Shown here: in pieces, positions 25,164-39,959 of the stretch | Numbering within the stretch: the first letter of the stretch is position 1 | How the letters are laid out: every line of letters begins with the position of its first letter | Assembly: GCF_028389875.1 (NCBI RefSeq) | Contig: NC_084672.1 | Span: forward strand, 8,854,458 to 8,918,457 | Direction: 5' to 3' | DNA length: 64,000 nucleotides | From: Rhea pennata | Lineage: Eukaryota; Chordata; Aves; Rheiformes; Rheidae | Program-made: the position numbers and the translations under genes | Notes under the pieces: model-generated | Told to the model about the DNA's origin: nothing | Seen by the model: only the letters and a program-made list of their open reading frames with translations | Database searches by the model: none

Positions 25164-25171
25164 GATATATA

Positions 25172-25224
<53 letters not shown>

Positions 25225-25250
25225 GTGTGTGTATATATATATATATATAT
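25164..25250. repeat. compound TA/TG microsatellite
   Basis: Alternating TA runs interrupted by TG and TATG units span about 87 bases. A second TA tract follows at 25281-25307. Such tracts vary in length among individuals. Confidence 0.95.
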
Positions 25251-25307: not shown

Positions 25308-28300
25308 AGTATTCATATATTCGTAGCTATAAAGGCCTTTTCTCTATTTGAACTAGATTGTACAGCCATGACCTACTGTCCCAGAAGGCTCTTTATTCAC
25401 GTTAAACGGGTACTGAGATTATAACGCTCCTTGGTAGTGGGTGCAGAAGCGTTCCAGAGGAGACAGAAGGTGATGAATGATCTTATCTGAAGCTCAGCAA
25501 AGAGGACAAAGAAACTTTCATTGAAAACAAGAGAACCGAGGGGCTCTGCAGTATGCCAGGCTTCACATCCGACAAACAAGCTAGGGAGAGCAATACTAGG
25601 GAGAGCAGGGAGGAGGGAACTGCCGCTCCTCTCAGCATGTTCTGGAGCCAGGGCAGGGGAAGCAGCGGCTGGACCACCAGGAAAGTCCTGGGGACAGTCA
25701 GGGTTACCCAGTGCCCAGGCTGGGGAAGGCCAATGGCCAAGCTCGGACAGAATCGTGGGAGGGAAAAAGGGGCCAGCTAAGACCTTCGCTACTGTGGGTC
25801 TGTGGCCAGGGCTGACCACAGCATGGCTGTTATTCCTCACAAGTGATGCCATAGCCTCGTGAGCCACCAGGACAGCACAGTTCCCACTGTGACCCTGCAA
25901 GACCAACCCACTGTCTGTCCTCCTGGACTTGCAGCATGACCCAGTTCCCAGCCCAGTGCCAGATCTCCCTCTGCCACAGGGGCAGCTTTACAGGCAAGAT
26001 GAGATCCCAGACAGGGTCTGGAGATGAGTTAAGTCCAGCCCTGCTCCACTGAGGTCAGCAGCAGTGTTTTCACCTTCATCACCCACCTGCTTTCAAATGG
26101 GGAGGGAGCTACAAGCTGCAGACATCTCTTCATCACATCTCAAGGCAGTACCCTCAGAGGCAAGGGACTAAAGTCAGCATCTCTCAGTAAGGCGCTGCTC
26201 CTGACTCTGGAAAGGAGTCCTCCCTCAGGAATAACCCAGGTGCACATGCAGCAGTGAGCAACCTCACTTATCCAAGGAGCTGGCAGCCCCCAAATGCCTC
26301 ATCCTCTTCCTCACACCCAGGGTCAGAGCTCTGCAAGGTTCAACAAGGATGAACAAGAGAAAGGAAGGTGATTTACCGCATGAGATTGCACAGTGTGCAG
26401 CTCTGCTTGGCTAGTTAAATGCTCCCATCACTTCACTCACCACTTGCTGGCCTTGGTCAGCGTTGGCAACATGCCTACCAGGCAGCACACATGGGGGAGA
26501 GCCCACTCGGCAGCAGAAGCCATGGTCGGGGGGGCGGGCAACTCATTTCTAGAAGAAAAGCTCAAGGGGTATTATGGGGCCTCATCCCCTCCCCAGGAAG
26601 GTGACAACTGTACCTGTGGCATGCGGGGACACCAGCACCCAGTCCACACACACACCAACACACTCACACATCCCAAGTCTGGAAGCTCCGACCTTTCAGG
26701 TGGTCTCTGACCACTCACCGCTCCTGTCTGTTCCTCCATCTATAAAACAGGGAGACTGTCCCCTGGGAGAGAAACAAGTGTCTTGGACTTCTCTGAAGGA
26801 GGGAAGAGGCCTTGTACTTTATACAGGCATTGATCTGTTCCTTCTGTGCTTTTTCCACTGGGGACTTACTGCCTCTGGATCTCATCTGCCTCCCTTTTGG
26901 AGGGAACAAATTAAAGGGTTTATACACTGATGCCTTTCTCACATCCAGCTTGCCATGCCCTATACATTTTCCCTAGTACCCTCTAAGTACCCCCCTACTG
27001 GCCCCTGCCAGTGTCAAATGCTGGGCAAGATAGACCCTTTGCTGGATATGAAATAAGAACTGTATTTCATGGAATCAAAGAAGAACATCTAGTACCTTCC
27101 ATTTTTCCTTTCTTCGCTCATGCTCTGCTCCAGAGGAGGAAGATGGTGACATCCTTGAGATCATTCTCCCACAGATGCTGTCAACATCATACAGACAGCT
27201 GGGTTGAGTGTTAGAAGAACAGCCGAAAAAGCTATTCAGCTCTGCCACTTCACCTCTAGCCCAGGAAGTCATGACCCAGATCTTCCAAAACCAAGTCAGT
27301 TCCCTCCCGATGGGGTTTTGGTGGAGGAGATAGAAGCACAGGGCTGGGGTGAGGCTGGTGCAAAATTCTAGGACAGAAGTCTCCCCTATTGTAGGCCAGG
27401 GAGCTGGAAATTGAAAGATTTTCCCATCAGCGCCATCACCCATGAGTGCAGCACCTGCAGTTATGAAGCATGTCATAGTCCTTGGCTCACAGTCACAGTC
27501 AACAGGCTGTGAAAATATGGGTGGAGTTAATCTCCACTGGTAAGGCTCTGCTGTGAGAAGGCATTAGAGGATGCCAGCTCTGAGCCAGGTAGGTGAGCAG
27601 AGCAACAAATCCCACGCAAGAGATTCATCAGTAAGGGACTGGCAAATGCAGCATAGCTCCAGGGCATGCTGGCAGCTCCAAGGCCAGAAGATGCTCGGCC
27701 TCAAATCCAAATCCTGGGTTTAAGGTCAACAGTAGCTCGGGGCTGAATAAGAACTAGGATCTCCATTAGTAAGTAAACACACAGTCCAGCTGAGAGCACA
27801 GGCTAGTTTGCAACACTGGATGATAAAAGACCTTACCTCTTTCCTGCAGAGCGAAACAGCTCCAAAATAATGGAAGTGCCATGAACGGAGGCGAGAAAGG
27901 CTCGGAGCAGAGCTGTACTTCCCAATTAGCATTCATAGGGAAACACAACCTCTTTGCAAAACCTCTGCATCAGCGTCCTGCAAGGAGCCCCTGACCCCTT
28001 GGTCCTCTCTTCCCAGCCAGGAGATCACTACAAATCACGTTAGCGAGGAGGGAACTGGTTGCGGAGATTAGCCAGTTCCTCGCTCAGATATTAACCTTTC
28101 TGTGAGGTCTGGAAGTATCTCTGGTTGCTGGCTTTGAGTCCCATGGTCACAGAGGCACAGGCAGTGAGATGTTCCAGTCCACTTATTCATCCCCAGCCCA
28201 TGCTGGGAAGAGCCACCAGCCATCCCCTGTCCTGGCCATGCCAGCTCTTCTCCCTCAGAACATCTTGCTTTCCCCCGTGGGCCTTCCCAGGGCACCAGGC

Positions 28301-28648
28301 TGTCCCCCCTTCACTGTGACATGGAGACAATTCATCTTGGAAAGGAATAGGTGGAGAGGAAAAATCCAGATCCCTTTTCCCTCCCATAGCCACCAAGGAG
28401 TCAGGAAGAAAGGGAAGAAGCACCAGCTGGACCCCTCAGGGAAAAATTCTGCCATTTCCTCAGAGAATTGTGGCTTCTAGGCCTTGATTACCTCTGAGCT
28501 GCCTTGGGAAGAAATCAGGACAGGGCTGGCCTGGGTGCTGGTGCCAGGGCATGCAGTGGTGGCCAGGGATGCTGGTGTCTCTCTGTTGGCTCTGGCACTC
28601 CAGCAGGGTGGAAGCGGCAGCAAGCTGGCTGCTGGCTGTTACGCTGGT

Positions 28649-28744
28649 GCCAGATGGTGGATGAGATTAAAAGAATTTGATTTTCAAATAATCCATAAAC
28701 CTGGCTGAGCTAATGTCGTTTCATATGCATTATCTTGTAATCCC
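28649..28744 (+). mobile_element. fossil of a Ty3/gypsy-type pol gene (RT/RNase H C-terminal motif) with premature stop
   Basis: One frame reads ARWWMRLKEFDFQIIHKPG, then TGA at 28706-28708, then ANVVSYALSCNP. Ty3/gypsy pol proteins typically carry ARW-x-L-x-L-x-EFDF-x-I-x-H-(K/R)PG followed by K-x-NVVADALSR at the end of RNase H. The order, spacing and most signature residues agree over about 32 codons, with no frameshift. The stop sits where a Lys is usual, and the Asp of ADALSR is replaced by Tyr, so this copy is dead. I cannot follow the element into the flanks in any frame. The preserved motif in a non-coding region could reflect chance, slow decay, or reuse as a regulatory element. Confidence 0.6.
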
Positions 28745-31700
28745 AGGGAAGAGAACATTTCAGAGCAAAGAGCCTTATTCTTCCTCCCTGCAAGGACTCT
28801 AACAAGCTATAGATAATCCCCTTTTTGTTGGAAGGTGCTTACAGGGGACCTACAACAGCCCTGTGCTTGGATGGGGGGGGGGGGGTGCAGCGTGGTTCTG
28901 CGCCTGGGAAGGGAGACAACCACGCATCCTGCAACTGCAGCCTGTGATCTGTCTTGCCCTAAGCTTCGCATGGGTGGGAGTAGCAGGTATCAAGGCCCAA
29001 GGACACCTGTCTGGACAGAGTCTGTCTGCTGGTAAGGACACAGCTGTGGGGATGCACAGAACGGACACTGAGGGCTGCTGGGGCTCCCCAAGGTGGTGTC
29101 CAACTAGTGTGCAGAAGCTCCCGAGTCCAGCCACAGAAGCACAGGACAAAGTCATGCTCCTGAGCAACTGGGGTGGCTGTCCTCTCCCTTAGGGAGGGGC
29201 AGTGTGGGCTGGCTAGGAGGAGACTTGGCTCTGCTTGCTAGTGATGGGGACAAACTTCGAGGACAGAGCTGAGGCCAAACCTCTCCTGGCAATACAAATC
29301 TCGGCACCCCAAGTTTCTCACTGACAACCCTTCAGGAGCAGAACACACCTCTTGGAGGGTGCAGTGCCCTCAGTGCTATCCCCACTGAGACCCTGTAGCC
29401 ATCTCCAACATGGGATCCTGAATGGGAACTCGAACTCAGACCCCTAGGAGCTAATCATCCCACTTGCCTGATTCCTAATGCCAACCTCGGTCTGCCTAGC
29501 AGCATTTTCTGTTCTCTCCATACTATCTCCAGAGCTGTCTCCAGTTGTGTGGGAAGGGAAGGGGATCCCTATCTGGGCTAGAAAGGAGAATTTTCTGCTC
29601 TCACTCGCTCACATTGCATGGGAGCCCATGCTGCCTTACTCAGCGTCGGGGGAGATGCATTCCCTTTTGCAGGTAAAACTGCTCTTGACTCCCGAAAGCC
29701 CAACCCAGGTGAATCAAGTGCACACTGCACTGTGCTGGGGACAGGACCAGGCCCCCACTGGTGACTGACCCCTAAAGCCAGGCCCCTGGCAACCACACTC
29801 CCTCCTGCAAGGGGAAGAATAGCACATGGCTGAAAACTGTCACTGAACACAAGCGGAAAAATCCCACGCTGCCTTCTCCAACACGAATGTCTCACAACAA
29901 GGCCACAGGAAATTAACGTTCAGGGATTTGTTGACTTCTACCCGCCTGTGCAACCATTCTTTCACCCCCACCTCTACCCCACACATACGCAATCCCCTCT
30001 GCACACTCACTCCTCACCCCCTGCCCACAGCCCCTCGGGCAGTCCTAAGCATCTGCTCTCCATCCTCAGATGCTGACTGACCATTCCCCTGCCCGAGCTC
30101 TCTTGCCAGCTCACCCCACGGAGTCTCCAGACTGCTCCTGCCCTCAGACACTACAAGCGAAGCCCTGCAGGACCCCTCAGCAACCCCCAGCAGTGACAGG
30201 GAGCACGTCTCTGCCTCAGCCTTTTTTCTCAGGCTAACCCTGCACCAGTAAGGCTCAAGCCACCTAGAGACTCCTTTGAGCCTCAGGCTGCTCATCAACC
30301 CTCTGTGGTGCAAACACAACCCTAAGCCCATCCCTGGGATCCTTCAAGGCACAAGTCAGAAGGACTGGGTATAGCTGGGAAAAACCAGTGACCCTACTCA
30401 ATGGTTCCATGCTGGACTGGACCTAAGGGTAGAGCAAGAAATGATTTTGAGGGGGAAGGGAAGAACTCCATGGACGGGATTTCCCAGTCACTGCCTGCCA
30501 TCTAGTGCCTAGTGCTTGCTGCTGTTTTATAAGCAGTAAGCAGCATCTGACTCCATCCTCGGAGGAATTTAGCTCTTAAATTAGAGACAGTGACATTTGC
30601 TTATCAGTCTCCCAGTGCTGAGAATTCCCCACTATGCTCTTCACTCTGTGCCAAGGCCAGGGAAAGGGTTTTGGAGGCAAATAGCTCAAATCCTGTTGGC
30701 ATCAGTCAGGGGAAACAGTTCAGGAGCTGGGGGAAGTGATGCTGCATGCACGCACTGACAGCACCCAGTGCTGAAAGCAGGCCAGGGAGAGAGGCACCTC
30801 ACCAGTGGGTTGCAAACACAATGCCCAGCAGCTGCAGCAGACTAACTAAACAGTACATCTTGCTTCGCCACGCACAGTTACCTTCAAGGTCGTATCATCG
30901 CTGTCAGTAGCTCCTAGCAAAACAGTACATGAACGCATTGTGCAAATAACGCCACAAAGGCTAAAAATAGGGAGACAAATGGAAGCGCGAGGGAAAGGTA
31001 TGAAGGGTGAAGCTTGGCAACTGTGCAGAAGATTGTCCATCTATAGAAAAATCTGAAAACAAAAAACCTATCAAGAAAAGAAACACTGCCTTCATGACTC
31101 AGATATTCTCGCTCTCAAAGACACTATTAAAATGTTTCCTACCCAGTTCAATCCCTGGGCAACCGTGACAGTAGAAATGTGGTCCCTCCAACTGACTCAC
31201 AGGCTTTGGGTAAGTGTCAACAGCAGGTACCCTGGCATGATGGCATGGTGCTGGAGCTTGTGTCAATGCACGGAGGGCCAAGAACCCCATCCTACATCAC
31301 CTGTATCCCTCTCCATCCTTCCGCGGGGTGGGAGGGGTCACACCAGCATGGACCCAAGAACACAACTGAGAGTACAGGCTTGTGCAGGAACAAGCAGGAG
31401 GAAAGCTTTGGCTGCACAAAGTCATCCTAATCCTACACAGGGCCAGGATCTAGCTCACTCCTTGCTCCCTGAGCCCACAGGACAAGGTGACTGGGCCACT
31501 GTCCTGATGACTGCAGGTGATTTAGAGTCTTTCATTGGTCTTCAGGCAATTGGTAGGGCTAATGCTCTTCCTCTGTCTTCAGTAAGGGCATCTCTGTGTT
31601 TCACCTCAGGAGCTGGTCATCTGTCAGCTTCTTGCCCTCTGAAAGGGTTGTGACATTTACCCACAAAGGCAGGAGAGAGCAGCCAGCAAAGTTGAGTCAC

Positions 31701-37759: not shown

Positions 37760-39959
37760 CTGCAAGACCCCAGCAATGCAAGAAAACAAGACATAAGAAC
37801 ACAAAGCAACAGCAACTGCTTTCCTAAAGTAACAGGAAGGGAACAGGACACTCCCAATGTCTGGCTCAGACTGACTGCTCCTTCTTCCCAGCAGAGATAT
37901 TACCAATCATAAAATTTCATGGGTTTATTTCATGGAAAACCTCTCTCTCCTAGAGTCCTGCAAGTTGCCTAAAAGTGAGAGAGGTAGAGAGCGAGTATCA
38001 AGCTCTGCCAACCCATAGTGGAAAAAAAAAAGGACACACAGATTTGCTAACACCATTTGCCACAAAAGCTGCTACAGAGTGACAAGAAGGAAAGTGAAGC
38101 TGTACCTAGAGCAACCTTAGACCATTCAGGAGGCAGTTAGACCTCAGACTGTGGGCCAGTCTTGGCACTCAGTTGCCAGCCCAGTTAGCCCCTCACATGC
38201 AGCACAACAGCTGAGCTGAGCGTAGTGCTGTTCTAGTCACTCTGCAACAATGCAGTTACAGAGCAGCTTATGCAGCCTTCACAGCTCTTGCCAGAAACCT
38301 CACCACATTTAGCTCAGTTCCATTGCCATAAAATCCCTTTTCCCAGCAGACGGGAGGAAATTTTACTACAGAGGATTTCAAAATATCCTTAAGTTAGGGC
38401 AAGGAATGAAAACAACTAGGACAAAGAGGAGAAGAGGGCCAGGTACACAGAAGGCTACATACCCAAAAAGGTAGCCATAGCTCGCTCAGCTGTGCTTCGC
38501 AGTGTCTCTCCAGGCTGCCATTCTGCTTGAGGCAGGAGCCACAGCTCCTGGTTACCAATTTTCTGTTTCACCAGAAGCATCAGGTTACTGTCCAGCTTTC
38601 TGTTCAGTGATGTTCGAATGTTGTTTTTGTCAGCATCTGCCAAAAAAAAATACATACTGGAAACAAAGTCTCTCAGCAGCACTGGTCTGATCACTACAAT
38701 TCATCACTTGTCTCCTTCTGATGCTTTTCCAGTAACAATACACACACAATACTGATACATGCAACGAGACCAAAATTGAGACCAAACACTATCAGTCACT
38801 CTAGGAACTGATGCAGGGTTTAAGTGAAATCCACTGCTACGCTGCATTCTACTTATTTCATTTTCAAACGAAATCAGAATAAGCAGTTTAGACTTTCAAT
38901 TTGACAAAAATCAGCCACAGCTCTAAGCAAGTTTGTGAATCAAGCTATCCGAAGTTTTTCTTATAAGAAAATCTATTTGCATCATTTTGTAAAGCTGTGT
39001 TAACAAGCACATGGGGACAGAGCTTCCTTTCTAAGCTAGGTAATTCCTCTGCCAACCGTGCTGCCACACAGCCAAGACCCTCCTTAAAAAATCAGCAAAT
39101 GCCTTCATTCAGCATTCAGTTGTGTTCCGCAGACTATCAAGGTGTTCTCCTCCACCACGATACAACAAAAACTTCAGTCTGTACCTGTTATCCGTGGAGC
39201 AGCTTTGAACTGCAGTAACTTCTGTTCCCACTTGTCCTCAAGGTCTTGAGCCATGACAACAGTTTTGCCAGGTCCTTCATCATCGTCATCATACATGCTT
39301 TCCTTCCTCCTCTTCAGCTGCTCTTCCTCCTCCAGCTTGCGAATTTCATGGTCCGAATAGTGGCTTTTCTCCAACTCTATCTGAAGAGCACCACAGAGAA
39401 CCGTTACGCCCTGCAGTGCCGTCACTACAGCTGCACAGAGCTGTGGGCTGCACAGGGGTGGGCAACGGAGCACACGGCCAATCTCCGGGGCTGCGGCCTG
39501 GCTTCTCCGCTCGCAGCGGGTCCCCACCGGGGGCAGTGGCAAACCCAGCTCCGGAGGCGACAACCTGACCCGGGACCGGCACCGGCACCGAGTCCCGGCC
39601 GCAGGCGGCACGGCCGGCACCTCCGCGTCACCCGAGCGAGGCCTCCCGAGGCGCTCCCCGCCCGGCCCCCTCGGGCTGAGCGGACCCGCCGCCCCCTCGC
39701 CGCTGCCCCCGGCAGCTCCGCGGGTCCCCGCGGCCGCCACCTTCCCCGCCGGAGGGGTCGCCACTACCTGCCCCATGAGGGCCGCCATCTCCTCCTCCTC
39801 CCGCCTCAGCGGCTGCGTGATCCTGGGCAGCCGCAGCAAGCAGAGCGCGCCGAAGAGCCGCCACGGCCGGGGCGCGGCCGCCGCCGTGCACAGCCGCTGC
39901 CCGAGCGCCGCCATCGCGCTCCCGCCCGGCCCACAATGCCGCGCGGCGGGCGTCGCCAT
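37509..39959 (-). CDS. MRPL46: mitochondrial ribosomal protein L46 (mL46), four coding exons
   Basis: The product is a structural protein of the mitochondrial large ribosomal subunit, acting in the matrix. Coding exons are 39959-39768, 39380-39185, 38636-38463 and 37759-37509. All junctions are GT-AG and the phases agree, giving 813 bases, or 270 residues plus stop; the human protein is about 279. Residues 1-64 form a basic, Ala/Arg-rich presequence followed by [12 protein letters not shown], typical for this family. Residues 65-129 include [13 protein letters not shown] and [15 protein letters not shown]. Residues 130-270 are the Nudix-like region ([47 protein letters not shown]). A catalytic Nudix box is not intact, as expected for a ribosomal member. 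I chose the ATG at 39959 because its context (AAAG-ATG-G) is strong; a second in-frame ATG at 39914 would remove 15 residues. The gene is divergent from MRPS11 and shares its CpG island. Family identity is very sure; the exact start is less so. Confidence 0.95.
38463..38636 (-). CDS. MRPL46: MRPL46 coding exon 3
   Basis: The acceptor follows a long T tract (TTTGGCAG|ATGCTG). The exon codes [15 protein letters not shown] through [10 protein letters not shown]. The junction codon with exon 2 gives Asp. The donor is TTGG|GTATGT and the exon ends after one base of a Gly codon. Confidence 0.94.
39185..39380 (-). CDS. MRPL46: MRPL46 coding exon 2
   Basis: The acceptor reads CTCTTCAG|ATAGAG. The exon codes [16 protein letters not shown] through FKAAPRIT, with an acidic run (DDDDEG) in the middle. 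The donor is ACAG|GTACAG and the exon ends after one base of a codon. Confidence 0.93.
39381..39767 (-). other. MRPL46: MRPL46 intron 1, GC-rich and fully open in frame
   Basis: The intron has a normal donor (GTAGTG) and acceptor (TTCAG). Its length is 387 bases, a multiple of three, and it has no in-frame stop, so unspliced RNA would read from exon 1 into exon 2 without interruption. The composition is that of the surrounding CpG island, which may alone explain the missing stops. Confidence 0.85.
39768..39959 (-). CDS. MRPL46: MRPL46 coding exon 1
   Basis: This exon codes residues 1-64, the probable mitochondrial targeting sequence and the start of the mature chain, ending MAALMGQ. The donor reads CAG|GTAGTG and the exon ends in phase 0. 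A YY1-like motif overlaps the first ATG on the coding strand. Confidence 0.88.

Follow-up and report, generated by a model that had tools for sequence, protein, structure and literature searches.

A probable remnant of Ty3/gypsy RNase H between NTRK3 and MRPL46 in Rhea pennata and its related copies

In the interval between NTRK3 and MRPL46 of the Rhea pennata genome a stretch of 96 bases can be read, across a stop codon, like the end of the RNase H domain of a Ty3/gypsy element, which raises the question whether this likeness is due to chance, to the decay of an old insertion or to a piece of DNA that was kept for another use. As gypsy elements are scarce in birds, a fossil family whose copies are open to mutual comparison tells something about the LTR elements once present in the bird lineage. 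We analyzed the window, meaning the whole stretch of 64,000 bases (C10:8854458-8918457), together with the 1.27-Gb assembly to which it belongs.

The fragment and its likeness to gypsy RNase H

The plus strand at 28649-28744 translates as ARWWMRLKEFDFQIIHKPG*ANVVSYALSCNP, and re-reading it gave the same frame, coordinates and in-frame TGA (Table 1) as a preceding sequence-only reading. The NTRK3-MRPL46 interval had also been named correctly: besides MRPL46, a query based on human TrkC located NTRK3-like exons at 8.728-8.804 Mb of C10, minus strand. The fragment is upstream of the nearest of these exons, which lies left of it at a distance of about 79 kb and about 50 kb outside the window; inside the window no NTRK3-like exon was found. 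Two simple repeats stand in the neighborhood, a run of 13 G directly right of the fossil (28873-28885) and an array of 43 AT dinucleotide copies (25165-25250).

Table 1: Features of the fragment and its neighbor in the window (feature, positions, strand, basis).
Decayed end of Ty3/gypsy RNase H domain (ARW...L.EFDF.I.HKPG..NVV..ALS.NP)	28649..28744	+	profile match, translated matches, related copies in genome
TGA stop; same codon TGA in four of six copies, CAA in two of six	28706..28708	+	copy comparison; putative CGA ancestor
Extension of the fossil into the linker between RNase H and integrase	28745..28819	+	copy comparison; protein match to 28771
Possible weak upstream extension, doubtful	28607..28648	+	protein match to one relative starting at 28607
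MRPL46 coding sequence	39174..39389	-	neighbor of fragment

The reference pols for the comparison came from a degenerate-motif scan of prokaryote assemblies, which led to four contigs (L001-L004) with open gypsy pol frames. They are filed under Mycobacterium, Streptomyces clavifer, Granulicella and an actinobacterium MAG and are apparently eukaryotic contamination of these assemblies. The fragment shows the motif of the RNase H C-terminus in the order and spacing known from Ty3/gypsy elements (Metaviridae), with ARW, L, FDF, I, PG, N and A-L-S following each other at the same distances, and it shares 14, 15, 15 and 14 of 32 residues with the tails of the four pols. A profile HMM built from these four tails and run on 858 chunks of the six frames of the window gave 36.3 bits (E 1.9e-10) for the fragment and 4.3 bits for the second-best chunk, while the top scores in shuffled windows were 8.9 bits (40 first-order shuffles) and 8.3 bits (100 third-order shuffles). 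Motif patterns matched the fragment alone in the window and none of 60 shuffled windows.

The sequence-only reading had stressed that both sides of the stop agree with the motif. This holds for the two sides jointly. Left of the stop the profile score is significant by itself (21.5 bits, E 8.4e-6, top shuffle 10.1), but the part on the right fails the profile test when taken by itself, with 4.1 bits under a top shuffle of 10.7, and contributes only by being in register with the left part.

A translated match to gypsy pol, named beforehand as a suitable check, was obtained with all four pols in a search of about 3 kb around the fragment together with five other loci; they match from 28649, 28652 or 28655 up to 28735 in the same register. 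When tblastn was run on the whole window with low-complexity filtering off, the fragment was matched by three of the four pols among the 25 matches listed, the match of L001 being absent among these 25, and some matches to GC-rich frames that are not pol ranked above the pol matches. Pfam and PDB sequence searches with the 32 residues of the fragment were empty. Two real gypsy tails of equal length also failed to retrieve an RNase H family from Pfam, whereas longer pieces of them scored 109 and 127 bits; the empty Pfam result therefore reflects low power. Rfam gave nothing on the window at gathering score. Two degenerate gypsy patterns and an exact 26-mer gave no match in viral contigs, and none of the four stretches found there with a gypsy RNase H query was confirmed.

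An AT-rich intergenic stretch could in principle resemble the motif by accident, and the right half within the shuffle range, the empty Pfam and PDB searches, the GC-rich frames outranking the pols and the absence of L001 among the 25 listed matches would all fit such a coincidence. Against it stand the joint profile match and the five further loci, alike in DNA and register, and the existence of these related copies refutes a chance origin, to which we give practically no probability. The earlier judgment that this is a gypsy RNase H tail and chance an unlikely cause was thus borne out by the joint profile E-value, the copies in register and the far lower shuffles. Judged by its sequence, the fragment is a remnant of Ty3/gypsy pol from the tail of RNase H.

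Related copies in the host genome

When 121 or 801 bases of the window served as DNA queries against the host assembly, the window itself was the sole match. A protein query with X at the stop matched the loci L026 (C10, E 0.005) and L027 (C1, E 0.019) and, more weakly, L028 (C1, E 0.38) and L029 (C13, E 1.95); the E-values of the last two are weak taken singly and are backed by DNA likeness, as all ten pairs formed by the window copy and these four loci align in DNA at the core. Using 73 residues of L029 as query, a sixth locus appeared (L037, C1, 115.929 Mb, E 2.1) and the window was matched at E 1e-4. A 38-residue query from L028 recovered no additional locus; it matched L029 at E 2.3e-5, the window at 6.6e-5, the sixth locus at 0.0016 and L026 at 0.039. 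The reversed 32-residue query had no match in the genome. When the six loci were compared over 8 kb each, all 15 pairs aligned at the core, in register and with E ≤ 1e-5, in comparison to none of 90 shuffled controls at this threshold and one of 90 at 1e-3; two of the 15 pairs align elsewhere too. This agreement in register, set against the shuffles, identifies a real repeat family, dispersed over contigs C1, C10 and C13 with at least six recognizable copies, a count that is a lower bound. Reading a motif by eye, even one interrupted by a stop codon, can thus lead to a real repeat family that Pfam misses because the piece is too short.

The window copy agrees with the others at 66-77 of 96 positions (69-80%; 19-30 differences), which makes the gypsy family old and agrees with the very old insertion that had been proposed from the sequence. 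Several copies bear additional stops and indels of their own, some of the indels within or beside the core. The left edge of the DNA likeness falls at 28648 or 28649 in all five comparisons with the window copy, and the right edge varies between them (28726, 28753, 28769, 28771 or 28819). Past the RNase H end the linker residues of the window, NPREENISEQR, have counterparts in NPKENKISDER and NPQEENISMER of other copies. In the 50 bases before 28649 the identity of the window to the other copies drops to 0.28 and the TDH-type stretch of gypsy is gone or unreadable, while L029 retains such a stretch upstream and in frame. The fossil is accordingly no isolated relic, since the genome holds at least six copies, and its homology extends past 28744 to about 28771-28819.

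These copies also bear on two other origins. The recent gain of a short piece of foreign DNA, such as one from a parasite, or of filler DNA at a repaired break might explain an AT-rich piece (GC 0.354) within GC-rich flanks (0.54-0.58), the constant left edge and the failure to find a near-identical copy in the genome. As 6.6% of the 96-base stretches in the window are as AT-rich as the fragment or more, composition alone says little, and six dispersed copies with 66-77 of 96 matches and marks of decay in most of them point to an old vertical presence, so that we consider a recent acquisition very unlikely. A remnant of an endogenous retrovirus instead of a gypsy element is conceivable inasmuch as retroviral pol is related to that of gypsy and the host genome has such pols, yet 14-15 of the 32 residues in the tail of the window agree with the four gypsy tails and the retroviral-type frame on C4 is, by eye, without such a tail; this origin is highly improbable. 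The frame on C4 (L007, C4:6517317-6517652, minus strand) is open over 1223 amino acids, matches a gypsy RNase H query with E 1.1e-6 and may represent either a young provirus or a gene that was domesticated.

Missing pol parts, stop codon and age

In comparison to Ty3/gypsy elements the window copy is reduced to about 100-170 bases interrupted by TGA, and LTRs, reverse transcriptase (RT) and integrase were not found there. No direct repeats of at least 14 bases occur within 27600-29800, and tblastn with the four pols (about 8 kb around each copy, E ≤ 2) detected the tail only between 24649 and 32744, with no RT and no integrase. For none of the six copies did the same search recognize integrase within about 4 kb, and around four of them, the window copy among these, it recognized no RT remnant either. 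In the other two copies RT-like scraps lie upstream of the core on the same strand. L041, which is the L029 locus, has the motifs YPLP.I..L and F.LTN..A.FQ..M in one frame about 1.9 kb upstream, and L037 has L.NAPA..Q.LM about 0.7 kb upstream. The protein matches are weak singly (E 0.03-1.1), and the two loci also align in DNA at this RT-like stretch (58% of 340 bases, E 3e-7). The scraps together with the common DNA suggest that both copies inserted as longer elements bearing pol.

Another gypsy fossil of this genome, L008 (C1:18785138-18785341, minus strand), has a different tail and contains decayed RT and RNase H with many stops (E 2e-12 to gypsy pol). Beside L008, which still shows both domains, the lack of integrase at all six copies and of RT at four of them counts against purely neutral decay. 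Truncation or greater age would explain the missing parts, and so would a preferential preservation of the tail.

With regard to the stop, TGA and CAA are the products of CpG decay of CGA, one for each strand, and the stop is thus a typical product of this decay; the ancestral codon would have been CGA for arginine. Birds accumulate close to 2 changes per 1000 sites per million years. From this rate and about 20-28% change per copy, the family may roughly be 100 million years old or older, an estimate that is affected by the picking of copies for their likeness.

Taking these observations together, the fragment is very probably what neutral decay has left of an ancient Ty3/gypsy LTR retrotransposon. 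Members of a single gypsy family would have inserted at several places in an ancestor of the host genome, and the copy in the window would have decayed or been cut until the RNase H end and the start of the linker towards integrase were left, about 28649 to 28771-28819. The TGA would have arisen through methylated-CpG decay of an arginine codon, and the fragment encodes nothing now and most likely has no function.

Neutral decay or regulatory reuse

The survival of the frame free of indels had been taken as a hint of regulatory reuse. In such an exaptation several ancient gypsy copies would have kept their RNase H tail as a conserved non-coding regulatory core while the rest decayed, the copy described here possibly serving NTRK3. 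The mutual identity of the five other copies fits this picture, with 0.73 in the core (positions 40-96) and 0.65 at positions 0-40 against 0.51-0.57 just outside and about 0.35 further out. L026 and L028, the closest pair, are alike at 49 of 56 core positions and at 92% over 53 bases, and a query of 501 bases from L028 matched three other loci at the core only. The lack of RT at four and of integrase at all six copies points in the same direction. Also in its favor are the human Repbase families that are derived from ancient gypsy internal pieces (X1_LR to X4_LR) and the concentration of ancient repeats in conserved regions, both given in the accessible text of PMC5753468.

All copies were found by their likeness to the core itself, and the window copy was noticed for its readable frame. 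We therefore simulated decay without constraint, on a star tree and without indels (60 runs per setting), and picked the five copies nearest to a well-preserved one. Roughly 30-300 copies at 20-24% change sufficed to reproduce the mean identity over positions 0-96; when positions 40-96 are taken alone, 24% change needs nearer 300-1000 copies and 28% several thousand. The closeness of L026 and L028 was reached in at most 58% of the simulated runs (20% change, 10,000 copies) and in at most 8% with up to 300 copies. This pair is thus closer than uniform decay usually yields, which counts against the neutral reading, and a common subfamily would explain it.

Picking for likeness without constraint thus yields the mean core identity, so that survival free of indels needs no selection, and the hint drawn from it was not supported. 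Exaptation was also weighed as the cause of the higher core identity and set aside in view of this simulation. Further points against it are the 19-30 differences of the window copy in 96 positions, the indels in or beside the core of other copies and the RT-like scraps of two copies, with which the tail would not be the sole surviving part; these scraps make exaptation less likely and a neutral fossil more likely. Such comparisons do not show a regulatory reuse of the fragment, and we regard a conserved core of this kind as conceivable but unlikely. The wider proposal, in which the six loci form a family of regulatory cores from the last 60 or so bases of gypsy RNase H, co-opted at several places including upstream of NTRK3 with nearly all else decayed, seems to us improbable as well. 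A constrained core would mean that coding sequence of pol had been converted into regulatory DNA.

No description of this family of six copies appeared among the papers listed by our literature searches, and the word gypsy is absent from the text of Jurka 2012 (PMC3500645). The accessible part of PMC3424704 describes gypsy elements as extinct in mammals, with active ones in fish and amphibians. Human Gypsy-derived families in Repbase include MamGyp-int in addition to X1_LR to X4_LR (PMC5753468, accessible text); they are likewise very old gypsy internal fossils in an amniote, a likeness by description only. The same limit applies to the likeness with the non-ERV LTR elements of birds, which are also LTR remnants of low copy number and make up less than 0.1% of five bird genomes, as given in the accessible part of PMC5486457. 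Off the gypsy core, two loci on C1 have a second stretch in common (L039:1594-1751 and L040:7847-8001 in reverse-complement coordinates; 67% identical, E 2.5e-11), which is probably a different repeat.
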